DNA from: Gammaproteobacteria bacterium LSUCC0096
GTDB lineage: Bacteria; Pseudomonadota; Gammaproteobacteria; Pseudomonadales; Litorivicinaceae
DNA: 64,000 nt
Reading direction: 5' to 3'
Assembly: GCA_008087055.1 (NCBI GenBank)
Contig: VIEA01000001.1
Location: 198,514-262,513 of the forward strand
Made by a program: the position numbers and the translations under genes. Below are positions 5,566 to 18,041 of the stretch, piece after piece; the first letter of the stretch is position 1; each line of letters starts with the position of its first letter. The notes under the pieces are model-generated. The model had not been told where the DNA came from. It worked only from the letters and a program-made list of their open reading frames with translations, and searched no databases.

Positions 5566-5913
5566 TCAACTTCCTCGATAAGTGGAAAAGCCGTATGGGC
5601 TAAGTAACAGCGGAACGTGGTAATGGGAATCGTCAGAAATACCAAATCGAATTGGGATAACATCCAAAAATGGATACTCGGGTAATTCGGTGCCTTGTTC
5701 TCTTAAATAGTCACCAGCATGGAATATAATTTCGTAAGCTCCGAATTGAGCGTCGTCATCTGAGAGTAATTTTTCAGATACCCGTCCGTCACCATTGGTC
5801 GTAAAAATGCCCAAGTCTTTAGGATTTGGTTCAAGGCGCTTGAGAGAAATTCGTAACCCTTGGGCAGGTGTTCCTTTTGCTGTATCGAGTACGTGAGTTG
5901 AGAGTGTAGTCAT
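5566..5913 (-). CDS. hiuH: 5-hydroxyisourate hydrolase (transthyretin-like)
   Basis: 115 residues, usual for the family. Begins [19 protein letters not shown] and ends with the diagnostic YRGS tetrapeptide after [16 protein letters not shown]. The N-terminal His, the Arg of LRISLKRLE, and the His of HYHVPLL are the expected active-site residues. The enzyme hydrolyses 5-hydroxyisourate, the product of urate oxidation, to OHCU. No N-terminal signal is seen, so it is cytoplasmic. It is the last gene of a puuD-lysR-hiuH minus-strand operon, 7 bases after the LysR gene. Confidence 0.95.
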
Positions 5914-5920
5914 GCGAACC

Positions 5921-6844
5921 TCAGCTTAAATAATCTTGGATAAGTTGGTTTGTCGGATGCGTTTTGAGATGTTCCGCGAGATAGTCGAGGAGTAGTTCAA
6001 CTTTGAGTACTCGACCTTTGCGTTCAGGCATCAAAGCCCGAATCCCGAGGTTTTGTGGTTCAAACTTTCTTAAAACAGGTATCAACAAGTCGTCGCGTAA
6101 TGCATCAGCACAGGTCCAAATGGATTGCTGGACGAGACCCTTTCCACTAATGCCCCAGTCGGTCAAAACTTCACTGGATGAGGCGTCAAGGCCACCTGAA
6201 ATTGCAACGGATTCGAGTTTTCCATTGATTAAGAATTGCCAGCGAAAGCGAGTTGATCCAGGGAATCGAAGGATTAAACACGAATGATTTTTAAGATCGT
6301 ATGGCGTTTTTAATTCGCTTGCTTGGTCTAGATAATCACGGCTGCCGGCAGTAATTCTGTGATCAGGAACGAGCGGACGCATAACCCAAGAGGAGTCAGG
6401 TAGGTAGCCTTGGCGCAGTGCGAGGTCGACTTTTTCTTCAACTAAATTCACTGCGCGGTCGGTTACATCGAGACGAATATCGATACTTGGATATTCAATT
6501 TTGAATTGTCCCAAAATTGGAGCGATAACGGAGCGCCCCAATGCATAGGGTGCTGAGATTTTAATTACGCCCTCTGGCGCTGCCTTCATTCGATCCAGTT
6601 CGTTTTGACAATCAGCAAACTGGTTCAGCACCGATTGGCAGGTGCTGTAATAAAGCTCTCCCGCTTCGGTTGGTTTGACTGATCGAGTCGTCCGATGTAA
6701 TAGCCGAACCCCGAGCTTTTGTTCGAGCTTAAGTATGCGTGAGCTGACTACAGCGGTTGAAATTCTGAGGTCACGACCAGCGGCCGAAAAACTCTCGAGG
6801 TCGACGACACGACAAAATACTGTAATGTCATCGATCTCATACAT
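5921..6844 (-). CDS. LysR family transcriptional regulator of the urate cluster
   Basis: 307 residues. N-terminal winged helix-turn-helix (about residues 3-62: [20 protein letters not shown] then [17 protein letters not shown]) followed by a LysR effector-binding domain. Lies between puuD and hiuH with only one base separating it from puuD, so it is co-transcribed with the genes it probably controls. The divergent puuD-puuE spacer carries two inverted repeats that could be its sites. The ligand may be urate or a breakdown product (inference from position). Confidence 0.9.
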
Positions 6845-6845
6845 G

Positions 6846-8027
6846 TCAGTTGTTCTCCAGCCAATACCCGAGCATGGCGCGCTCCTCGGGTTTCATTTGT
6901 GTCATGTTACCTAACGGCATGGCTTGAGATGCAACTGATTGTGCATGCACTTGTGCTTTATATTTCTGCACGTCCACAAGCGTCTCGAGAATGACACCTT
7001 TGGGTGGCGTCGTGAATCCAGCCATTGTTGGTTGGGCTGCATGACATCCCGCGCAGTGCGTCGTAACGATGGTTTGTATCGCATCATCAGTGACAATTTG
7101 GTTTGTATTGAGCGTGACCGTTTCAGGCTTTGCCCAGATTGCGAGAACGATGATTAAGATCGAAGCAATTGGCCACTGCCATCTCACTCGAAGCCCTGTC
7201 GCTCCAGCATGCCCTGCATTGAAGTAATCTCGAATAATTGCACCAATGAGGACGATGAGACCTACCAATATCCACAGATCATCGCCAACGAATGTCATTG
7301 GATAGTGGTTCGAGAGCATCATGAATAACACTGGGAGCGTAAGGTAGTTGTTATGCGTCGAGCGCTGTTTTGCTTGCTGTCCAAGCGCCGGATCAGGTGC
7401 TTCTCCGCGTTGAAGTGATGCGACCACTTTTTTCTGGTTAGGGATGATTATGAAAAAGACGTTACCGGTCATCCAAGTCGCGACCATAGCACCAACATGC
7501 AAAAGTGCCGCGCGAGAACTGAATATCTCGCTGTAAGAGTAGGCCGCTAAAACCACAACAACATAAACAATGAATCCGAGTATCAATAAGTTCTTACCAA
7601 TCGGGGTCTTGCAAATGAGGTCATATACGATCCACCCAAGTGCCAGTGAGGCGAGAGATAGACCGACTGCTTGCATGACTGTTATGTCAGCAACAGACGA
7701 GTCGATAAGAAACGCCTTTGCACCCCAATAGTAGGTGACTGCTAATAGTGAGAATCCGCTAATCCACGTGAAATAACTTTCATATTTGAACCAGTGGAGT
7801 TCTTTTGGCATTGAGCCAGGAGCAACGAGGTATTTTTGCACATGATAAAAACCACCTCCGTGGACACTCCATGATTCACCATGCACGCCTTCAGGTAGAT
7901 GTGCCGCTTTACGTAATGATAAATCGAGCCATACAAAATAAAACGAGCTTCCAATCCATGCGATCGCAGTGATCACGTGAAGCCATCGTAATAATAAGCT
8001 TGCCCAGTCCATCCAGTATTCAGCCAT
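6846..8027 (-). CDS. puuD: Membrane urate oxidase / urate hydroxylase PuuD with cytochrome c domain
   Basis: 393 residues: about eight membrane helices in residues 1-320, then a cytochrome c domain with CAGCH at 325-329 and a likely Met axial ligand in AMPLGNM near 370. The N-terminal part has WLHVITAIAWIGSSFYFVWLD, typical of the PuuD (DUF989) urate hydroxylase family. The enzyme oxidises urate to 5-hydroxyisourate and passes electrons through its haem domain to the respiratory chain, so no H2O2-forming uricase is needed. It is the first gene of the minus-strand operon puuD-lysR-hiuH and is divergent from puuE. Confidence 0.93.
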   Translation of the reverse strand: MAEYWMDWASLLLRWLHVITAIAWIGSSFYFVWLDLSLRKAAHLPEGVHGESWSVHGGGFYHVQKYLVAPGSMPKELHWFKYESYFTWISGFSLLAVTYYWGAKAFLIDSSVADITVMQAVGLSLASLALGWIVYDLICKTPIGKNLLILGFIVYVVVVLAAYSYSEIFSSRAALLHVGAMVATWMTGNVFFIIIPNQKKVVASLQRGEAPDPALGQQAKQRSTHNNYLTLPVLFMMLSNHYPMTFVGDDLWILVGLIVLIGAIIRDYFNAGHAGATGLRVRWQWPIASILIIVLAIWAKPETVTLNTNQIVTDDAIQTIVTTHCAGCHAAQPTMAGFTTPPKGVILETLVDVQKYKAQVHAQSVASQAMPLGNMTQMKPEERAMLGYWLENN

Positions 8028-8111
8028 GATGCGTCCTCAGGTCGGTGCGTTTTATGTTTGGCAGAGTCTAAAGGCCGTCGTTTTGAATAATTACACTTAA
8101 TTTTCGCTCAT

Positions 8112-8155
8112 ATTATCAAAAAAATATTGATAATCTCGAGCAAGATATTCGAGAT
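8112..8155. promoter_or_regulatory. Two inverted repeats in the puuD/puuE divergent promoter region
   Basis: First repeat: ATTATCAA (8112-8119) and TTGATAAT (8127-8134), a perfect 8-bp pair with a 7-bp gap. Second: ATCTCGA (8133-8139) and TCGAGAT (8149-8155), a perfect 7-bp pair with a 9-bp gap. Dyads of this kind with the T-N11-A pattern are usual for LysR regulators; the LysR gene of the cluster is the natural candidate. The 156-bp spacer must hold both promoters. Confidence 0.55.
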
Positions 8156-8183
8156 AATGCATTCTCGTTCGAGGAGATGATCA

Positions 8184-9104
8184 TTGAAATCACAGTATCC
8201 ACGCGATTTACAGGGATATAGCGGTCGCCCGCCACATGCAAACTGGCCAGGCAACGCTCGTGTCGCTGTGCAATTTGTTTTGAATTATGAGGAAGGTGCG
8301 GAGAACTGCGTCCTTCATGGCGATCATGCGAGTGAGATTTTCCTTTCCGAAATCATTGGTGCGCAACCTTTCGTAGGGCGTCGTCATTTATCGATGGAAT
8401 CGATTTATGAGTACGGATCTCGAGCGGGGGTCTGGCGTATTCTGGAACTATTTCGATCGCGCCAAGTGCCTCTAACAGTTTTTGGGGTGGCAATGGCAAT
8501 GGAGCGCCATCCAGAGGTTGTTGATACGATGTTGGCTGATGGCCATGAAATTGCGAGTCACGGATATCGATGGATTAATTACGACGGCTTTTCTGAAGCG
8601 CTTGAGCGCGAACAGATGGAGAGAGCGATAGAGATTCATGAGCGATTGACTGGGGCGAAGCCTGTGGGATGGTATACCGGCCGAACTAGTGAGTTCACTC
8701 GTGGCTTGGTTTCTCAGTACGACCACTTTGAATATGATGCTGATGATTACTCTGATGACCTGCCGTTTTGGAGTCGAGTCGAGAAGACACGTCCGCATCT
8801 CGTTGTCCCATATACGTTAGATACAAACGACATGCGATTCGCGACTCCGCAAGGATTCCATAGCGGAGAGCAATTTTTGCAATATCTCAAAGACGCGTTT
8901 GACGTCCTGTACGCCGAAGGGGCATCAGTCCCGAAAATGATGTCGGTTGGGTTGCACTGTCGTTTGATTGGTCGACCTGCGCGTTTTAAAGCACTGCAGC
9001 AGTTTTTGGATTATGTATTAAGTCACGATCAGGTTTGGGTTCCGCGTCGTATCGATATCGCGCGGCATTGGGCTCAAGAGCACCCTTACAAGGAGGACAT
9101 GTGA
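8184..9104 (+). CDS. puuE: Allantoinase PuuE (polysaccharide-deacetylase fold)
   Basis: 306 residues. NodB-like fold with the PuuE signatures YPRDLQGYSGRPPHANWPGNAR at the N terminus, RAGVWRILELF, GHEIASHGYRW, and a C-terminal GLHCRLIGRPARF. This is the allantoinase type that hydrolyses allantoin to allantoate and is unrelated to the amidohydrolase AllB. A TTG start at 8184 is supported by GAGGAG at 8171-8176, seven bases upstream; the ATG at 8177 is out of frame. First gene of the plus-strand operon puuE-uraD-alc-allA. Confidence 0.93.
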   Translation: MKSQYPRDLQGYSGRPPHANWPGNARVAVQFVLNYEEGAENCVLHGDHASEIFLSEIIGAQPFVGRRHLSMESIYEYGSRAGVWRILELFRSRQVPLTVFGVAMAMERHPEVVDTMLADGHEIASHGYRWINYDGFSEALEREQMERAIEIHERLTGAKPVGWYTGRTSEFTRGLVSQYDHFEYDADDYSDDLPFWSRVEKTRPHLVVPYTLDTNDMRFATPQGFHSGEQFLQYLKDAFDVLYAEGASVPKMMSVGLHCRLIGRPARFKALQQFLDYVLSHDQVWVPRRIDIARHWAQEHPYKEDM

Positions 9105-9613
9105 GTCAAACTCCCTATCCAAAGCAGCTCAATGAGACTCAGTTTATTGAAGCATTCGGCAGTATTTATGAGCACTCGCCTTGGGTTGCTGAGGCCGTTT
9201 ACACATCAATGACGCCAGGAATTGATGTGCGCGTAATGGCAGAGGCAATGCAATCGGTAGTTGATGAGGCGTCTGATGTGTTGAAGTTAGAACTGCTGTG
9301 CGCTCACCCTGATTTGGCAGGACGATTGAGTTTGGCAGAGCTCACTGAATCATCACGCTCAGAGCAAACAGGCGCAGGCCTTGATCAGTGTACTCCTGCT
9401 GAATTGGCGGAGTTTCAGGAATTAAATAACGCATACCTCGAAAAATTTGGGTTTCCATTTATATTCGCCGTGAAGGGTTTTCATCGAGCAGATATTTTGG
9501 AGGCGTTCCGCGTCAGAGTGCATCATTCGCGCGAAGAAGAATTTAACACTGCAATTGAACAAGTCCATCGGATCGCTCGGTTGCGTTTGGAGACTATAGC
9601 AAATGAGTTTTGA
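9101..9613 (+). CDS. uraD: OHCU decarboxylase
   Basis: 170 residues from a GTG at 9101 whose bases overlap the puuE stop (GTGA); AGGAGG at 9091-9096 decides this start over upstream in-frame codons inside puuE. Family signatures: LCAHPDLAG with the catalytic His, SRSEQTGAGL, and FGFPFIFAVKG. The enzyme decarboxylates 2-oxo-4-hydroxy-4-carboxy-5-ureidoimidazoline to S-allantoin, completing the HiuH step. Cytoplasmic. Overlaps the next gene, alc, by 11 bases. Confidence 0.94.
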   Translation: MSQTPYPKQLNETQFIEAFGSIYEHSPWVAEAVYTSMTPGIDVRVMAEAMQSVVDEASDVLKLELLCAHPDLAGRLSLAELTESSRSEQTGAGLDQCTPAELAEFQELNNAYLEKFGFPFIFAVKGFHRADILEAFRVRVHHSREEEFNTAIEQVHRIARLRLETIANEF

Positions 9614-10589
9614 ATCAAATTTACCCAAATTCGCTTTAGATACAGTGAATTTAGCGAGCGAGAAGCTTGGCGCTATTGCTGTCGATTGTAGCGATGATTT
9701 CTTTGCTGATAAGCAGCGGTTGTTGTCTGACTCAGAGCCTGAATTTCATAAAGGCCATTTCGACGCCAATGGCCAATACATGGATGGTTGGGAGTCTCGC
9801 CGTCGTCGAAGCGGCGGGTTTGATTGGTGTCTCATTCAGTTAGCGGTCCCGGGGATGATTGCTGGGTTTGATATCAATACGGCACACTTCACAGGTAACT
9901 ATCCGCCGGGAGCATCGATCCAAGGGTCAGTGAGTGTAGACCGACCATCTGACAATCAGTGGATTGATTTGTTAGATGAGGTGAGCCTTCAGGGCAACTC
10001 TCATCATTTCTTTGACGCGAATCCTCATGATCAACCGATTCGTTGGGTTCGTTTAAACATTTATCCTGATGGTGGCGTAGCCAGACTCAAAGTGTATGGG
10101 CAACCGGTTGCTGATGAGATGGAACCAGGGGCTGAACTCGAATTGTCTGCCCTCAAACTTGGTGGAAAAGTTGTTGCCTACTCGGATGCGCACTATGGGA
10201 ATCCAGAAGTGATTTTGACCCCGGGTCGGGGCGTGAATATGGGTGATGGCTGGGAAACGGCTCGCCGCCGTGTTCCGGGCAATGAATGGATTATTGTGAA
10301 GTTAGGTGTTCCAGGGATTATAGAGCGTATTGAAGTTGACACTGCGCACTACAAGGGCAATTTCCCGGCGGGATGTTCCCTGCAAGCTGCTCAAATGCCT
10401 AATCTAGGAAAAGATGCCATAGTTACTCAAGCGATGTTCTGGGATGAAGTCTTGGCATACCAGGCTTTGACCGCTGACTCGATTCATGCGTACGAAGTTA
10501 ATTCGAAAGAACCGGTAACCCATGTGAAACTCAATACCTACCCAGACGGCGGTATATCACGACTTCGAATTTTTGGGACGTCGGTCTAA
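9603..10589 (+). CDS. alc: Allantoicase
   Basis: 328 residues made of two homologous jelly-roll repeats (about residues 15-170 and 180-328). Each contains a GWE(S/T)xRRR motif, a VPG(M/I)I turn, D(I/V)(N/D)TAH(F/Y)xGN(F/Y)P, and a closing NxYPDGG(V/I)(A/S)RL strand. Allantoicase converts allantoate to ureidoglycolate plus urea. Its presence, rather than an allantoate amidohydrolase, means the pathway releases urea, which explains the urease operon next door. Start ATG at 9603 lies inside the end of uraD; its stop shares a base with the allA start. Confidence 0.95.
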   Translation: MSFESNLPKFALDTVNLASEKLGAIAVDCSDDFFADKQRLLSDSEPEFHKGHFDANGQYMDGWESRRRRSGGFDWCLIQLAVPGMIAGFDINTAHFTGNYPPGASIQGSVSVDRPSDNQWIDLLDEVSLQGNSHHFFDANPHDQPIRWVRLNIYPDGGVARLKVYGQPVADEMEPGAELELSALKLGGKVVAYSDAHYGNPEVILTPGRGVNMGDGWETARRRVPGNEWIIVKLGVPGIIERIEVDTAHYKGNFPAGCSLQAAQMPNLGKDAIVTQAMFWDEVLAYQALTADSIHAYEVNSKEPVTHVKLNTYPDGGISRLRIFGTSV

Positions 10590-11065
10590 TGCGTACTATT
10601 AAGCCTGAGCCGTTAACAAGAGAGGTATTTGCACCTTTCGGGGACGTGATTCAAATCGAAGGATCAGAGCAGTTTGAGATCAATTCGGGATACACGACTC
10701 GGGTTCATGATCTCATTGATATCCAGTTAGGCGGTGAAAATGCCAAAGCGCAATTCAGTTTTTTCTTAGGAAGGCCGCGTCCGCTCGAAATCAGGATGCT
10801 CGAAAAGCATCCGTTCGGTAGCCAAGCATTTTATCCAATCGATAGTGCGCGATGGCTTGTGGTTGTCGCGAAAGAACCCAAGCCAGAGTCAGTCTGCGCA
10901 TTCTGGGCGACTGGTAGACAGGGCGTAAATTATCACAGCAATGTGTGGCACCACCCATTATTGGTCCTGGAGCCTCAGCAGTTCGTCATCATTGATCGGG
11001 GTGGTGCGGGTAAAAATTGTGATGAAATGCCTTTAGATGAAACGGTTTTTTTGAATCTCGATTGA
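10589..11065 (+). CDS. allA: Ureidoglycolate lyase
   Basis: 158 residues, usual AllA length. Opens IKPEPLTREVFAPFGDVI and contains the cupin-like FYVIP-type segment (AFYPIDSARWLVVVA) and YHSNVWHHPLLVL with the conserved His residues. Cleaves ureidoglycolate to glyoxylate and a second urea. The ATG at 10589 overlaps the last base of the alc TAA (TAATG). Last gene of the allantoin operon; a candidate NtrC site begins only 12 bases after its stop. Confidence 0.93.
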   Translation: MRTIKPEPLTREVFAPFGDVIQIEGSEQFEINSGYTTRVHDLIDIQLGGENAKAQFSFFLGRPRPLEIRMLEKHPFGSQAFYPIDSARWLVVVAKEPKPESVCAFWATGRQGVNYHSNVWHHPLLVLEPQQFVIIDRGGAGKNCDEMPLDETVFLNLD

Positions 11066-11076
11066 TAATTGTGCGC

Positions 11077-11093
11077 TGCACCTAAATAGTGCT
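11077..11093. promoter_or_regulatory. Candidate NtrC binding site 1
   Basis: TGCACC-TAAAT-AGTGCT matches the NtrC consensus (TGCACY-N5-RGTGCR) at nearly every position. It lies about 118 bp upstream of a sigma-54-like promoter, a usual enhancer distance. Confidence 0.65.
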
Positions 11094-11117
11094 GGACCGG
11101 CTTAAATATCAGAAAAT

Positions 11118-11134
11118 CGCACTCTCATGGCGCT
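11118..11134. promoter_or_regulatory. Candidate NtrC binding site 2 (weaker)
   Basis: CGCACT-CTCAT-GGCGCT keeps the 6-5-6 dyad of NtrC sites with two departures from consensus. Its start is 41 bp after that of site 1, close to four helical turns, so both would face the same side of the DNA. Confidence 0.5.
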
Positions 11135-11210
11135 TGGAAGTCAATCATCGCTTCGGCATTTATTCCAAAAACATTTAAATAACAAAGCATTAGCGGCTTC
11201 CATGCCGTAT

Positions 11211-11227
11211 TGGCATGTTCTCTGCTG
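11211..11227 (+). promoter_or_regulatory. Candidate sigma-54 promoter (-24/-12)
   Basis: TGGCATGTTCTCTGCTG has the invariant GG and GC separated by exactly 10 bases, close to the consensus TGGCAC-N5-TTGCW. Predicted start of transcription would be near 11237, about 40 bases before the urtA remnant ATG (11279), which has a GGAG ribosome-binding site at 11267. Confidence 0.6.
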
Positions 11228-11278
11228 AAATCACTTTGGCGAGTCGGATCGCACGTTATTTCAACCGGAGAATTTCCT

Positions 11279-11386
11279 ATGCAAACACGAACATGGAAGC
11301 ACGTCTTCAAAAGTACCATTTTAGCCTCGACCGTTGGACTGTCAGTCTCAATTGCTCAGGCCGCGGATACGATCAAGGTAGGGTGA
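11279..11386 (+). pseudogene. urtA: 5' remnant of urea ABC transporter binding-protein gene (urtA)
   Basis: 35 codons: a good Sec signal peptide (basic MQTRTWKHVFK, hydrophobic core, AQA cleavage site) followed by ADTIKVG and then TGA. Mature UrtA proteins begin with just such an A-D-T-I-K-V-G strand and continue for about 380 residues; here it stops at once. It has its own ribosome-binding site and the candidate nitrogen-regulated promoter. Together with the urtE-like tail that begins within it and the ureD gene that follows, I read this as the left side of an internal deletion removing urtA-urtE. Assignment rests on a short stretch. Confidence 0.6.
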
Positions 11387-11448
11387 AACTTTCTGGGTAC
11401 AAAGGACGGGTGAATCAAGATGAAGTGCGCGCATTGGTGACTGTGTGA
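11371..11448 (+). pseudogene. urtE: 3' remnant of urea ABC transporter ATPase gene (urtE)
   Basis: In a different frame from the urtA remnant, 25 codons (DQGRVKLSGYKGRVNQDEVR then ALVTV and stop) look like the C-terminal tail of a branched-chain/urea ABC ATPase. In such ATPases a D/G-x-G-x-V strand is followed by an acidic helix and an EVRxxxxV end. The TGA at 11446-11448 overlaps the GTG start of ureD, the kind of coupling expected of an intact urtE-ureD junction. Bases 11371-11383 (GATCAAGGTAGGG) read sensibly in both frames, so they may be the short homology at which the deletion occurred. Confidence 0.55.
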
Positions 11449-12302
11449 ATCAGTGTTTAGTCGTTGGTCAAAACGCCTCTTGGAATGCGCGTCTAAAATG
11501 TGACTTTCATCAAGCGAGTTCAGGTCGAACTCAGTTAGCCCGCCTCTCGCATGAGGGGCCGTTACGGATTCAAAAGCTTTTTCACGATCATGACCTTGCA
11601 CATTGTTATCTTCTTCACCCTCCTGGTGGCTTGGTTTCGGGGGATAATTTGTCTTGTGAATTTAATTTTCATGCGAACTCCAAGGCCTTAATAACAACCC
11701 CCGCGTCAGGAAAGATCTACAGAGCTCGAGGAAACGGTTCCCTTCAAACAGTTGAGTCGAGAATCGAAGTAAAGCCAAAAGCTTGTTGCGTTTATGTGCC
11801 ACAAGACACGATTGTCTACGATGATGCTCATGGAGAGCTTAATACCCAGGTTTCAGTCGCCTCTGAAGCTATGTTCTTTGGATGGGAGCATCTTGTCTTT
11901 GGTCGTTTGGCCGGAGCTCAGCCGTTCTGTCGGGGACAGATTATGCAATCGTTAACAATTAAACGTGACAACCGTCTGTTGTACCGGGATCGGCTGAATA
12001 TGACTCCGCAAGTTGTAAACGAACTATGCGGATTATCTTCAAGGACTAGTTTTGCTTCTGTAACTTTAGTTACACCCGATGGTTTTGAATTTGGACAGGA
12101 TATCGTTGCCAATTGTCGCGCGATCTTGAAAGACTTTTCCGGAATCGCAGGTGTTTCTGCTATCAGAGAACATTTGATCGCTATTCGTTTACTGAGCAAT
12201 CACGCCGAAAAAACAAGAATTGCCTTAGAAACTGTATGGTTAAGTATCGGCAAGCAAATGCTTGGTCGAACAGTTCAAATTCCACGAATTTGGAGAACTT
12301 AA
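11445..12302 (+). CDS. ureD: Urease accessory protein UreD
   Basis: 285 residues. UreD family features: W-x-A-R-L-x-x-x-F at the start, GPLRIQKLF, LLHPPGGLVSGDNL, ITTPASGKIYRA and a central YDRLNM-like YRDRLNMT. UreD (UreH) is the scaffold that binds apo-urease and recruits UreF and UreG for nickel insertion. A GTG start at 11445 overlaps the stop of the presumed urtE tail, so its translation was probably coupled to the transporter; after the deletion it must rely on the remnant. Abuts ureA. Confidence 0.92.
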   Translation: MNQCLVVGQNASWNARLKCDFHQASSGRTQLARLSHEGPLRIQKLFHDHDLAHCYLLHPPGGLVSGDNLSCEFNFHANSKALITTPASGKIYRARGNGSLQTVESRIEVKPKACCVYVPQDTIVYDDAHGELNTQVSVASEAMFFGWEHLVFGRLAGAQPFCRGQIMQSLTIKRDNRLLYRDRLNMTPQVVNELCGLSSRTSFASVTLVTPDGFEFGQDIVANCRAILKDFSGIAGVSAIREHLIAIRLLSNHAEKTRIALETVWLSIGKQMLGRTVQIPRIWRT

Positions 12303-12620
12303 ATGGAACTGACTCCTCGAGAGAAAGATAAACTTTTACTTTACACGGCAGGGCTAGTTGCTGAGAGACGCCTCGCGCGCGGCCTGAGATTGAATTACCC
12401 CGAGGCTGTTGCCTTGATTAGTTTGGAAATATTGGAAGGCGCGCGCGATGGCAAGTCGGTTGCTGAGTTGATGCAATTGGGAAGATCTGTCTTAACACGA
12501 GATCAAGTGATGGGTGGTGTCGCCGAGATGGTAGATGAAGTCCAAGTAGAGGCCACTTTCCCCGATGGGACCAAGCTTGTCACAGTGCATGAACCGATTC
12601 AGGAGGTGTTTCAGTCATGA
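12303..12620 (+). CDS. ureA: Urease gamma subunit
   Basis: 105 residues; [20 protein letters not shown] and the [40 protein letters not shown] blocks are those of the small gamma subunit, which packs around UreC in the (UreABC)3 trimer. Follows ureD directly and overlaps ureB by 4 bases, so the structural genes are translationally coupled. Confidence 0.97.
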
Positions 12621-12931
12621 TTCCTGGAGAAATGTGTATTCGTGAAGGTGATGTCATTCTCAATGAAGGCCGAGAAACCCGCGTGATGGTGGTTGCCAAT
12701 ACAGGAGATCGGCCGATTCAAGTCGGGTCTCATTACCATTTCTACGAAGTCAATCCTTGTCTGGAATTCGAGCGGGTGCAAGCAAAAGGGTTTCGCTTAA
12801 ATATTGCTGCAGGGACTGCTGTTCGATTTGAGCCAGGTCAAGAAAGAACTATCGAACTTGTTGCTCTAGCAGGAGAGCTAAAGATCTACGGATTTAGAGG
12901 TTTAGTGATGGGTAGCTTGGAGGATGCGTAA
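12617..12931 (+). CDS. ureB: Urease beta subunit
   Basis: 104 residues; [19 protein letters not shown], then [13 protein letters not shown], and [11 protein letters not shown]-type ending. Separate beta subunit, as in most proteobacteria (not the Helicobacter fusion). Its stop overlaps the ureC ATG by one base. Confidence 0.97.
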
Positions 12932-14631
12932 TGAAGATTTCTAGGCAAACCTATGCCGAGCTCTACGGACCGACAGTTGGGGATGTTATTCGCTTAGGCG
13001 ATACCAATCTTTGGATAACCCCAGAGTCAGATTCGGCTGTACCAGGCGATGAAGTCACTTTTGGTGGTGGAAAAGTAATCCGTGATGGTATGGGTCAGTC
13101 ACAAAGGCTGGGCTCTGAATGCATGGATCTAGTGATTACGAACGCGATTATTTTAGATCACTGGGGCATTGTAAAAGCTGATGTGGGTATAAAAGCAGGC
13201 CGCATCGCGGCCATCGGTAAAGCCGGTAATCCTGATGTTCAGCCAGCAGTTTCGGTAGTGATTGGGCCTGGCACCGAAATCATTGCAGGTGAAGGGAAAA
13301 TTCTTACAGCCGGTGCAATCGATTCCCACATTCATTTCATCTGCCCTCAGCAGATCGATGAGGCGCTCTCATCTGGTGTGACGACAATGATAGGAGGGGG
13401 CACGGGCCCAGCAACTGGCACAAATGCAACCACCTGCACTCCGGGATCTTTCAACATGGAAATGATGATGCGGTCGGTCGAGGGTCAGCCGATGAACTTT
13501 GGCTTTTTGGGTAAGGGTAATGCGAGTCGACCAGAGCCTTTACTTGAGCAAGTCAAAGCTGGCGCTTGCGGGTTGAAGTTACACGAAGACTGGGGAACAA
13601 CTCCACAGGCTATTGATACATGTTTGTCTGTCGCTGATGAGACCGACATTCAGGTTGCTATTCACACTGATACGCTCAATGAGTCCGGCTTTGTCGAGGA
13701 GACTTTGAAGGCTATCGCAGGTAGAACGATCCACACTTACCACACAGAGGGTGCCGGTGGTGGGCATGCGCCTGACATCATTAAGGCAGCCGGCCTCTCC
13801 AATATTTTGCCCTCTTCGACAAATCCCACACGCCCATACACGATCAATACGGTTGATGAGCATTTGGACATGTTAATGGTTTGCCATCATTTATCACCAA
13901 GTATTCCAGAGGACGTAGCTTTTGCAGACAGCAGAATTCGTAAAGAGACGATCGCAGCTGAAGACATACTGCATGATAAAGGAGCCTTTAGCATGATCGC
14001 ATCCGACTCTCAGGCGATGGGTCGTGTCGGTGAGGTGATTACCAGAACTTGGCAGACCGCTCACAAGATGAAAGATCAATTGGGTTCATTGGAATCGGAT
14101 CCTGAATGGAATGATAACAATCGAGTGAAGCGTTACATTTCAAAGTACACCATTAACCCAGCAATAGCACATGGTGTTGCTCATGAAGTGGGATCGATAG
14201 AGGTTGGAAAACTGGCCGATTTGGTCTTATGGAAGCCCGCTTTTTTTGGTACGAAGCCATCACTCATTCTGAAGAGTGGATTCATTGTTGCTGCTCCAAT
14301 GGGTGATCCGAATGCCTCAATACCGACTCCGCAGCCGGTGCATTATCGAACAATGTTCGGTGCGATGGGTTCGTGTCCCGACCGATTGTCGGCGACTTTT
14401 GTGTCGAAGTTATCACTGACGCAAGATAATCATTGGATGACTGAGACGCAGCGACAATTAATAGCCGTCAAAAATATTCGGACAGTCAGTAAGGCTGACA
14501 TGATTCTCAATGATTATCAGCCATCAATCGAAGTGGACCCAGAGACATACATGGTTCGCGCAGACGGTGAACTATTGGTTTGTGAGCCAGCTATCTCGCT
14601 ACCCCTAGCCCAGAAATACTATTTGTTCTGA
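12931..14631 (+). CDS. ureC: Urease alpha (catalytic) subunit
   Basis: 566 residues, standard length. Nickel site residues are present: HIHF early in the amidohydrolase barrel, the carbamylated Lys in [22 protein letters not shown] and [15 protein letters not shown]. The mobile active-site flap carries [20 protein letters not shown] with the usual Cys and His. Hydrolyses urea to ammonia and carbamate in the cytoplasm. In this cluster it would use the two ureas released per allantoate by Alc and AllA. Confidence 0.98.
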
Positions 14632-14643
14632 GGAAAATGAAAA

Positions 14644-15090
14644 ATGTTAGAGCTGATTGAAAAACTGGAACACGCGCATCGATATGATGCAGTTATTTCC
14701 CTCGATTATGATTCTCGTAAGAGGGGAAGGTTAAAAGCGATGACAGACTCAGGAGAAGAAGCGGGTTTGTTTCTGGAAAGAGGTAACCTTTTAGTTGCTG
14801 GTGACTGCTTAAAAGCGACAGACGGACGAGTTGTTTTTATACAGGCCGCTATCGAAAGATTGAATGAGGCAATTACCCCTGATCCTTTGCTGTTTGCGAA
14901 GATCTGTTATCACTTGGGCAATAGACATACGCCGATAGAAATTGGAACGAGTTCGGTTCGATTTCAGCCTGATCACGTCTTAGCGGCAATGTGTCGAGAC
15001 TGGGGTTTATTTGTCTCTGAAATTGATGCGCCATTCAATCCTGAAAGCGGAGCTTACGGGAAACACAGTAAGCATCACCACCATGATTGA
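14644..15090 (+). CDS. ureE: Urease nickel metallochaperone UreE
   Basis: 148 residues. [16 protein letters not shown]-type N-terminal domain (here [18 protein letters not shown]) followed by the metal-binding half with [12 protein letters not shown], and a His-rich C terminus (HSKHHHHD) that can bind extra nickel. Delivers Ni to the UreDFG-urease complex. Overlaps ureF by 8 bases. Confidence 0.94.
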
Positions 15091-15736
15091 TTCAACCAGT
15101 TTCGTCCACGCCCTTCATTTGTTTTCACCGAGTCTACCAATCGGTGCTTTTGCGTTCAGCCAAGGTCTTGAGAGCGCAGTTGAGTCTGGAAATGTCTATG
15201 ATTCTGAGACGCTTCAGCGTTGGTGTGATGGCGTATTGAGATATTCGCTTTCAACACTCGATTGTCAGTGCGCGAGACGCGCGTACCAGTCTAAGACACC
15301 AGATGAGTTTAGCCAGGTCAACGCAGAGCTATTGGCTTCTCGTGAGACATATGAGCTGTTAATGGAGGATATGCTCCTTGGATCAGCGTTAAAGAAGTGG
15401 GCTGTTGAACAAGGAATAACTGTTCCTCACGAAGAGGAATACTCTGTTGTCTGTTTATACGGTTGGATTGCATCAAGCTATTCAGTTCCTGAAGACATGG
15501 TTATCGCTGGTATTCTCTGGAACTGGCTCGATAACCAAACTGTTGTTGCGGCGAAAGTAGTTCCATTAGGGCAGATTGCGCTTCAGCAAGTGTTGTCTTC
15601 ATTAAAACCAGTTATTGTGGATTGTGTAGAGCAATCTCGATTATCAGATGTTGTTGCATCTCATAGCACTGTCCCCTTTCTTTCTATACTGAGCGCTCAG
15701 CACGAGACTCAATATTCACGGCTTTTTCGTTCTTAG
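15083..15736 (+). CDS. ureF: Urease accessory protein UreF
   Basis: 217 residues from the ATG at 15083, which lies in the end of ureE; an upstream in-frame ATG at 15011 would add 24 residues inside ureE with no family counterpart. Family motifs: [20 protein letters not shown] at the start and the all-helical body with LKKWAVEQG-type and WNWLDNQ segments. UreF gates UreG GTPase activity in the activation complex. 9 bases before ureG, with AGGAG upstream of the ureG start. Confidence 0.93.
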
Positions 15737-15745
15737 GAGATACGT

Positions 15746-16381
15746 ATGCAGGCATTACGAGTTGGTATCGGTGGGCCAGTGGGCTCCGGTAAGACTGCGC
15801 TCACACTCAACTTATGCAGAGCTATGCGTGATCACTACGATATGGCAGTGGTCACGAATGACATTTATACACATGAGGATGCTCAGTTTTTGACTCGTCA
15901 TGATGCACTTTCTCAGGACAGAATTCTGGGTGTTGAGACTGGCGGATGTCCTCACACAGCGATTCGTGAAGATGCATCTATGAATCTCGCTGCGATCGAT
16001 GAATTACAAGAGAGACATCCGAATCTTGAGTTAGTCCTTGTTGAATCTGGAGGCGATAACCTCAGTGCCACTTTCTCACCCGAGTTATCTGATTTGACGA
16101 TCTACGTTATTGATGTAAGTGCAGGAGACAAAATCCCTAGAAAGGGTGGGCCTGGGATTACTAAAAGTGACTTGCTTGTGATTAATAAAGTCGATGTGGC
16201 TCCATTGGTTGGCGCGTCACTTGAGGTCATGGATAAAGACGCGAAACAAATGAGAGGTGAACGCCCGTTCGTGTTTAGCAATATGAAAGCCGGGCTAGGA
16301 CTTCAAGCGATTTTAGATTTTATTGTGGATAAAGGCATGCTAAGGCCAAGCATTATTGAAGTTTTTAAGGAGAATCTGTAA
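15746..16381 (+). CDS. ureG: Urease accessory GTPase UreG
   Basis: 211 residues. P-loop [16 protein letters not shown], the [15 protein letters not shown] metal/effector segment, [17 protein letters not shown] with the Cys-Pro-His nickel site, ESGGDNL, and [16 protein letters not shown]-class GTPase that drives nickel insertion into urease. Its TAA overlaps the start of the small membrane protein gene by one base. Confidence 0.97.
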
Positions 16382-16560
16382 TGAAAAAATTGATAATCGC
16401 ATTGTTGATGTCACCTATGGTTTTTGCGCATCCAGGGCATGATCACGAAGGAATTCTGGCTCATGGCGTTGCAAATCCTGATCTAGCAGTGATGCTGTTC
16501 GTTGTGTTTGCGGTAAGTTGCGCTTGGGGTTTGGGATTTTTGAAGCGGGTTTCCCGATAG
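16381..16560 (+). CDS. Small His-rich membrane protein of the urease operon
   Basis: 59 residues: signal-like N terminus ([16 protein letters not shown]), a His/Asp-rich stretch HPGHDHEG, then a hydrophobic segment (about residues 36-53) and a basic end. The start ATG overlaps the ureG stop (TAATG), so it is part of the urease operon. The A-HPGH opening is what HupE/UreJ metal permeases show after their signal peptide, but those proteins are about 190 residues with six helices; this is either a reduced relative or a separate small nickel-handling protein. Function unknown. Confidence 0.6.
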   Translation: MKKLIIALLMSPMVFAHPGHDHEGILAHGVANPDLAVMLFVVFAVSCAWGLGFLKRVSR

Positions 16561-16706
16561 CGTTCGACTTTAGTTGAGTGAATATTTAAAGAGCAGTTGC
16601 GTACCCTCGAATTTGGGTTGAACATCTCTGCGGAGTGCAATCCGATCTTTGCGCACTCACAACAATCATTAGCCTCCGATCGGATGAGGTTGAAGGAGAA
16701 AAGACA

Positions 16707-18041
16707 ATGGCTGTAGAAAAGCTGTCGGCAGAGGATTTGCGGGATCCGGATTCTGTGCCTCCAATGAGCCAAGCGATTCCGCTTGGGTTACAACACGTTC
16801 TTGCAATGTTTGTAAGTAATTTTACGCCTGCGATCATTATTGGTTTAGCGGCGGGGTTTAGTTTCGGATCGCCCGATCTCGTTTATCTGATTCAGATGTG
16901 TATGTTGTTTGCGGGTATCGCGACCTTATTCCAAACCGTTGGATTTGGTCCAGTTGGTGCGCGCTTACCGATCATGCAAGGAACGAGCTTTGCCTTTATT
17001 CCTGTGATGATTCCTGTTGTCAAAACAGCAGGTCTCGGCGCGTTATTTGGCGGCATCGTAATCGGTGGGCTGTTTCACGCGTTCCTCGGTACAGTGGTTG
17101 CACGGATGCGTAATCTCTTGCCGCCACTTGTCACAGGCTTAGTTGTCGTATCAATCGGATTGGCGCTTCTGCCGACTGGCATTAAGTATGCGGCTGGCGG
17201 TGTACCACTCATGGGTAAGCCAGAATTTGGTGGATTTGATCACTGGTTCTTAGCGCTAGTAGTGATCTTTGTTTCTTTGGGCCTTAAATTCTTTGCCCGC
17301 GGTATGCTGTCGACAGCCGCTATTTTACTAGGCCTTATTGCGGGTTACCTGGTTGCGATTCCTATGGGTATGGTCAACTTTGGCAATGTCGCAAAAGCTT
17401 CTTGGTTTGCATTACCGAACCCGATGAATTTTGGTTTTGAATTCAATGCGGCGGCAATTATCGGCATCATGCTGATTAGTATTGTGAGTGCGATTGAGAC
17501 TGTTGGCGATATTTCAGGTGTCACTAAAGGCGGTGCCGGTCGGGAAGCAACTGATAAAGAGTTATCAGGTGGCACGTTCGCGGATGGCTTGGGTACAGCG
17601 TTAGCTGGATTCTTCGGAGCACTTCCTAACACGTCATTTAGCCAAAACGTTGGTTTGATCGCCCTAACCGGTGTGATGAGTCGTATTGTGGTTACTTTGG
17701 GGGCGGTATTCCTGATCATTTGTGGGCTCGTTCCAAAGATCGGAGCGTTGATTTCCTCAATGCCAATTGCAGTCCTTGGTGGTGGTGTGGTTGTAATGTT
17801 CGGTATGGTCGTCTCCGCTGGTATCAACATGTTGTCGGATGTTGTTTGGACGCGCAGAAACATGGTGATTCTCGCGGTTGCTTTGTCTGTAGGTCTTGGC
17901 CTGCAAGCTGTTCCGGAAGCGCTGCAACACTTGCCATCAACAATGAAAGTCTTGTTGAGCTCTGGTTTATTACCAGTTGCATTCATCAGTATTGTATTGA
18001 ATGCGGTTCTACCTGAAGTTGATGATAAATCTGCGCTTTAA
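16707..18041 (+). CDS. NCS2 family nucleobase permease (urate/xanthine type)
   Basis: 444 residues, 12-14 membrane helices. Start at 16707 is set by AAGGAG at 16693-16698; the in-frame ATG at 16635 lacks such a site. NCS2 signatures: QGTSFAFIPV, the substrate-site segment SAIETVGDISG with its Glu, and SQNVGLIALTGVMSR (family signature Q/N-x-G-x-x-x-x-T). Belongs with bacterial xanthine/urate H+ symporters. Located directly after the urease operon in a urate-degradation region, so urate import is the likely role, though xanthine or uracil cannot be excluded from sequence. Confidence 0.85.
   Translation: MAVEKLSAEDLRDPDSVPPMSQAIPLGLQHVLAMFVSNFTPAIIIGLAAGFSFGSPDLVYLIQMCMLFAGIATLFQTVGFGPVGARLPIMQGTSFAFIPVMIPVVKTAGLGALFGGIVIGGLFHAFLGTVVARMRNLLPPLVTGLVVVSIGLALLPTGIKYAAGGVPLMGKPEFGGFDHWFLALVVIFVSLGLKFFARGMLSTAAILLGLIAGYLVAIPMGMVNFGNVAKASWFALPNPMNFGFEFNAAAIIGIMLISIVSAIETVGDISGVTKGGAGREATDKELSGGTFADGLGTALAGFFGALPNTSFSQNVGLIALTGVMSRIVVTLGAVFLIICGLVPKIGALISSMPIAVLGGGVVVMFGMVVSAGINMLSDVVWTRRNMVILAVALSVGLGLQAVPEALQHLPSTMKVLLSSGLLPVAFISIVLNAVLPEVDDKSAL

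Follow-up and report, generated by a model that had tools for sequence, protein, structure and literature searches.

What once lay between the ureidoglycolate lyase gene (10589–11065) and ureD (11445–12302) in LSUCC0096, and what a urease operon serves in that position, are the questions raised by positions 11279–11448 of the window, the 64,000-nt stretch of DNA analysed here. We consider it very probable (about 0.94) that this region is the scar of a urtABCDE deletion within a probably nitrogen-regulated operon, by which the urease operon would have come to lie behind the urt promoter and would now serve purine-derived urea. LSUCC0096 is an isolate belonging to ‘Candidatus Halomarinus pommedorensis’ of the OM252 clade (PMC8269220). 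The 1,935,310-base genome was assembled into 4 contigs of up to 1,442,657 bases and scored 99.4% for completeness.

Remnants of urtA and urtE and the upstream control region

A urtA 5′ remnant was located on the forward strand at 11279–11386, comprising 35 codons with a signal peptide and the residues ADTIKVG (MQTRTWKHVFKSTILASTVGLSVSIAQAADTIKVG; ATG at 11279) and a stop codon (TGA, 11384–11386). The urtA ribosome-binding site GGAG (11267–11270, + strand) was recognised from the sequence, GGAGAA being aligned in relatives. In a tblastn search, residues 1–35 of a same-genus UrtA (genome G012) matched positions 11279–11383 with 77% identity (E 4e-11), and the codon alignment was in frame and gapless. 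At the DNA level, the promoter and urtA head matched genome G001 over 11167–11385 (E 4e-38), the match stopping at the junction. The preliminary description had read here a urtA-like start (ribosome-binding site, signal peptide, ADTIKVG) running into a stop, and had expected its first 35 codons to align with urtA of relatives keeping the transporter; the former was present and the latter was obtained.

The urtE 3′ remnant (11371–11448, + strand) contains the last 25 codons and the stop of the gene. It reads DQGRVKLSGYKGRVNQDEVRALVTV followed by the stop, with the same length and frame as in four relatives, to which it aligned without gaps and with 12–15 identical residues. Its score of 66.75 compared with 22.25 for the runner-up among the 127,852 six-frame stretches of the window, and was reached by none of 200,000 shuffles. 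Since the stop (TGA, 11446–11448) overlaps the ureD start (GTG, 11445–11447), the proposal of a urtE-like tail ending over the ureD start was borne out, as was its predicted alignment with relatives. An NCBIfam scan of both remnants gave no match; such models need longer sequences, and direct comparison with relatives was therefore used instead.

Upstream of the urtA remnant, a sigma-54-like −24/−12 promoter (TTGGCATG-TTCT-CTGCT), originally that of urtA, was found at 11210–11226 on the + strand. This element (TTGGCATGTTCTCTGCT) has GG/GC at the correct spacing and was conserved at the corresponding position in G001, G012, G014 and G017. Two candidate NtrC-binding-like sites, called by consensus match only, were also located on the + strand: a palindrome (TGCACCtaaatAGTGCT, 11077–11093) agreeing at 10 of 12 consensus positions, which was the joint best in the window and was matched by similar palindromes at the corresponding position of relatives, and a weaker second site (CGCACTctcatGGCGCT, 11118–11134) agreeing at 8 of 12. 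Both rpoN and ntrC were found over cut-off in the genome. These features suggest that the operon is probably under sigma-54/NtrC nitrogen control. The cut would have removed the urea importer while sparing the promoter, the NtrC-like sites, the urtA ribosome-binding site and the urtE end overlapping ureD. Because the control region and both operon ends were spared, the complete urease operon should still be transcribable, directly behind the former urt promoter. Enough of the cut survives in the scar to show that promoter, ribosome-binding site and ureD start escaped it, and the earlier claim that the operon ends had been retained held, as the urtA start with its promoter region and the urtE end overlapping ureD are still in place.

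Comparison with relatives indicated what had been lost. In G014, an intact urtABCDE-ureD cluster occupies the same place as the scar, and in G012 and G017 an inserted block separates urtABCDE, preceded by the lyase gene, from ureD. G001, the nearest urt-bearing relative, has its urt region split over two contigs, one carrying allantoicase, lyase, urtA and urtB and another starting with the urtE end and ureD; in G001, G012 and G017 the lyase gene adjoins urtA. The window resembles these four arrangements in the position of the remnants and in the urtA start with promoter and ribosome-binding site, and resembles G014 and G001 in the urtE end overlapping ureD; unlike them, it has lost urtB, urtC and urtD and all but 35 codons of urtA and 25 of urtE. 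The ancestral order would have been allantoicase, ureidoglycolate lyase, sigma-54-like promoter, urtABCDE and ureDABCEFG, and a deletion of about 5.3 kb would have fused codon 35 of urtA to the 25th-from-last codon of urtE. The positions corresponding to the two fusion points lie 5,323, 5,321 and 5,315 bases apart in G012, G017 and G014, respectively, such that about 5.32 kb, containing most of all five urt genes, is missing. Models for UrtA, UrtB and UrtE had no match over cut-off anywhere else in the genome (scored as 99.4% complete), in agreement with the earlier estimate of about five lost genes.

The junction and competing explanations

At the junction, 13 bases (GATCAAGGTAGGG, 11371–11383) are readable in both the urtA and the urtE frames and set an upper bound for the shared repeat; the fusion point would be a short stretch, of at most 13 bases, common to the two genes. 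Read in the urtE frame the junction gives DQG, whereas all four relatives have DRG. As this reading needs Q at a conserved R, the true repeat may have had fewer than 13 bases, and the CAA at the junction may derive from urtA alone. In the relatives, the two corresponding sites were identical at 6–8 of the 13 positions, which in two of the three genomes placed them among the best 0.7% of registers. Thus, the 13 bases do make sense in both frames, as the preliminary description had noted, but as the length of an exact repeat they are only an upper bound. The proposal that exactly 13 bases recombined was softened in view of the 6–8 shared positions. The same partial identity makes slippage or annealing between short similar sequences a plausible route, and RecA-independent slippage or single-strand annealing would be the likely one. 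RecA-independent deletions between short direct repeats are known in E. coli (PMC5426353). As in the deletions described there, an intervening stretch was lost between two short similar sequences, with one copy at the junction; the difference is that for the scar both the mechanism and the length of the repeat, 13 bases at the most, are deduced. The event is a gene loss of an already known kind.

Compared with the relatives, both remnants were far more diverged at third codon positions than at first and second positions, so that most of the divergence arose while they were still coding, and the deletion is recent relative to the split from these relatives. The loss looks like one clean cut, although several successive deletions would look the same.

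A possible addition to the scar reading is that the junction has since been retained for a new use, as a two-step translational relay. A possible 21-codon ORF (11383–11448, + strand), whose function as a relay is putative, begins at a GTG overlapping the stop of the truncated urtA ORF (GTGA) and ends with a stop overlapping the ureD start (again GTGA); AAGG at 11375–11378 sits 4 nt before its GTG. Passing from the urtA remnant through this ORF to ureD, ribosomes would couple ureD to the urtA ribosome-binding site, and coding-like codon-position patterns do persist in both remnants. However, a recent deletion would account for these patterns just as well, and about one third of in-silico junctions with such a tail, constructed on G014, gave the GTGA overlap by chance, so the overlap in itself is no evidence of selection. 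In addition, RNA around the ureD start was less structured than shuffles (z 2.47), and being unusually open it may allow ureD to start independently. We therefore regard the relay as doubtful. Equally tentative is the broader proposal that, along with this double GTGA relay, the operon was converted to a urease operon driven directly from the urt promoter, and that such a change towards a urease for purine urea only took place independently at least four times in the genus. RNA structure at the junction was considered separately as a candidate feature and rejected, the stretch folding less than shuffles. It was also observed that GGTGAC just 5′ of the ureD start (window 11436–11448) is common to the window, G001 and G014, in all of which the urtE end lies beside ureD, and is altered in G012 and G017, where ureD lies elsewhere. 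These bases could belong to a weak ureD ribosome-binding site.

The 35-codon urtA remnant might instead be a functional small exported peptide or a leader, its start, ribosome-binding site and signal peptide being intact. We consider this very improbable, as the short form was found in one genome only and descent from urtA fully accounts for the similarity. Less probable again is an assembly artefact, in which reads from the urtA start and the urtE end were wrongly fused over a short sequence that can be read from either side, the five genes still being in the genome. A 13-base repeat is far below the read length and the word lengths of assemblers of the type used, and the missing genes were on no other contig. 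With so short a shared stretch, and with an isolate sequenced on MiSeq with 250-base paired reads at 30x and assembled with A5 (PMC8269220), collapse during assembly is very unlikely. Finally, although the interval between lyase and ureD varies among members of the genus, it is hardly credible that urt was never at this locus and was gained in relatives by insertion there, since an empty ancestral site would carry neither remnant, and the window has the urtA 5′ end and the urtE 3′ end in the right order, together with the urtA promoter and the overlap of urtE with ureD.

Loss of urtABCDE in other members of the genus

Complete urtABCDE was reported in 10 of 25 OM252/‘Ca. Halomarinus’ genomes, and urease in LSUCC0096 and HIMB30 (PMC8269220). 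Our comparison agrees with that picture of variable urt and urease content; that paper mentions no scar in its passages on urea, and its main text does not contain the words purine, allanto- or uric. A decayed urtE 3′ part was found between lyase and upp in G007 (locus L052, approximately 1646–1920), matching UrtE residues 150–230 with 59% identity (E 1.5e-21) and having more sequence with a frameshift upstream; it appears to be an independent second urt deletion scar with a different upstream breakpoint. In G004 (L048, 2138–2300), the sequence tracks the urt upstream region of G017 to TATTTCCTTT and then passes into the last urtE codons (AACCGTGTAA), such that the breakpoint lies upstream of the promoter and the sigma-54 promoter was lost. 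In G008 (HIMB30; L050), G015 (L136) and G019 (L138), lyase abuts upp almost directly and no urt remnant was found between them, which represents a further, clean loss. The breakpoints in G007, in G004 and in the group of G008, G015 and G019 all differ from that in the window. In rpoB and operon trees, in which some forks were weak, G004 grouped with the urt-bearing G017, and the window stood apart from both. By gene order and breakpoints, urtABCDE has disappeared from at least three further lineages of the genus, in which allantoicase and ureidoglycolate lyase were retained.

Detection of ureD in the genome contigs was by an alignment-based scan, a single-sequence UreD scan having given no match. 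Among the 12 ureD-bearing genomes, those without UrtB over cut-off were G000, G004, G006, G007, G008, G015 and G020. Ureidoglycolate lyase was present in all seven of these genomes lacking the UrtB permease, the numbers being small and several of the genomes incomplete. The recurrence of the loss in the genus adds to the interest of the scar.

Two further observations concern the neighbourhood of urt in these genomes. Between urtE, or lyase, and ureD, many members of the genus carry upp, four polyamine-importer-like ABC transporter genes and a racemase-like gene, named by eye, as one block (L044, 6592–12180, and L045), which may take up a compound derived from purines or pyrimidines. A divergent second UrtA-like gene is interrupted by one or two in-frame stops (TGA, TAA) in G011 (C91), G018 (C15), G019 (C11) and G021 (C16), which suggests decay of another urt-like transporter.

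Urease and purine-degradation genes

The region at 5566–18041 holds genes for hydroxyisourate hydrolase, urate oxidase (PuuD type), PuuE allantoinase, OHCU decarboxylase, allantoicase, ureidoglycolate lyase and ureDABCEFG, together with a xanthine/uracil-type permease. Allantoinase PuuE, OHCU decarboxylase and allantoicase (8184–10589, + strand) were identified by NCBIfam TIGR03212, TIGR03164 and TIGR02961, respectively, all over cut-off, and yield allantoate and subsequently urea within the cell; ureidoglycolate lyase (+ strand), the last allantoin-degrading gene before the scar, was identified by NF009932 (175.8 bits; cut-off 160). The first intact gene of the urease operon is ureD (+ strand), assigned by Pfam PF01774 (147 bits) and by alignment to nine same-genus UreD. 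It is followed on the same strand by intact ureA, ureB and ureC for the urease subunits gamma, beta and alpha (12303–14631; NCBIfam, over cut-offs) and by the intact maturation genes ureE, ureF and ureG (14644–16381; Pfam UreE_N/UreE_C, UreF and CobW/HypB/UreG).

Two steps of purine breakdown, those of allantoicase and ureidoglycolate lyase, each yield one molecule of urea in the cytoplasm, so that urease has an internal substrate. From this gene content, the urease would act on cytoplasmic urea freed by these two enzymes during purine breakdown. Because the importer was lost, the adjoining urease was kept and several relatives likewise lack the importer, the urease of this cell is probably fed by internally made, purine-derived urea. 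It could also be that an unrecognised urea carrier compensates for the loss of the importer. A search for the urea channel with PF03253 gave no match, and the controls likewise went undetected, so that this result is no proof of absence.

The clade of LSUCC0096 appears to subsist on ammonia or urea, according to PMC8269220. Marine urease genes are often taken as a sign of the use of dissolved urea, and the urease described here need not imply urea uptake. With the importer gone and at least four lineages of the genus, that of the window included, having lost it at different breakpoints, the genus offers a testable case for a urease handling internal purine urea. It was also noticed, as another direct connection of purine breakdown with urease, that in two related genomes (L073, 8967–10834, and L074, 2894–4760) a PuuE-like allantoinase gene directly abuts or overlaps ureD, with no urt between them.
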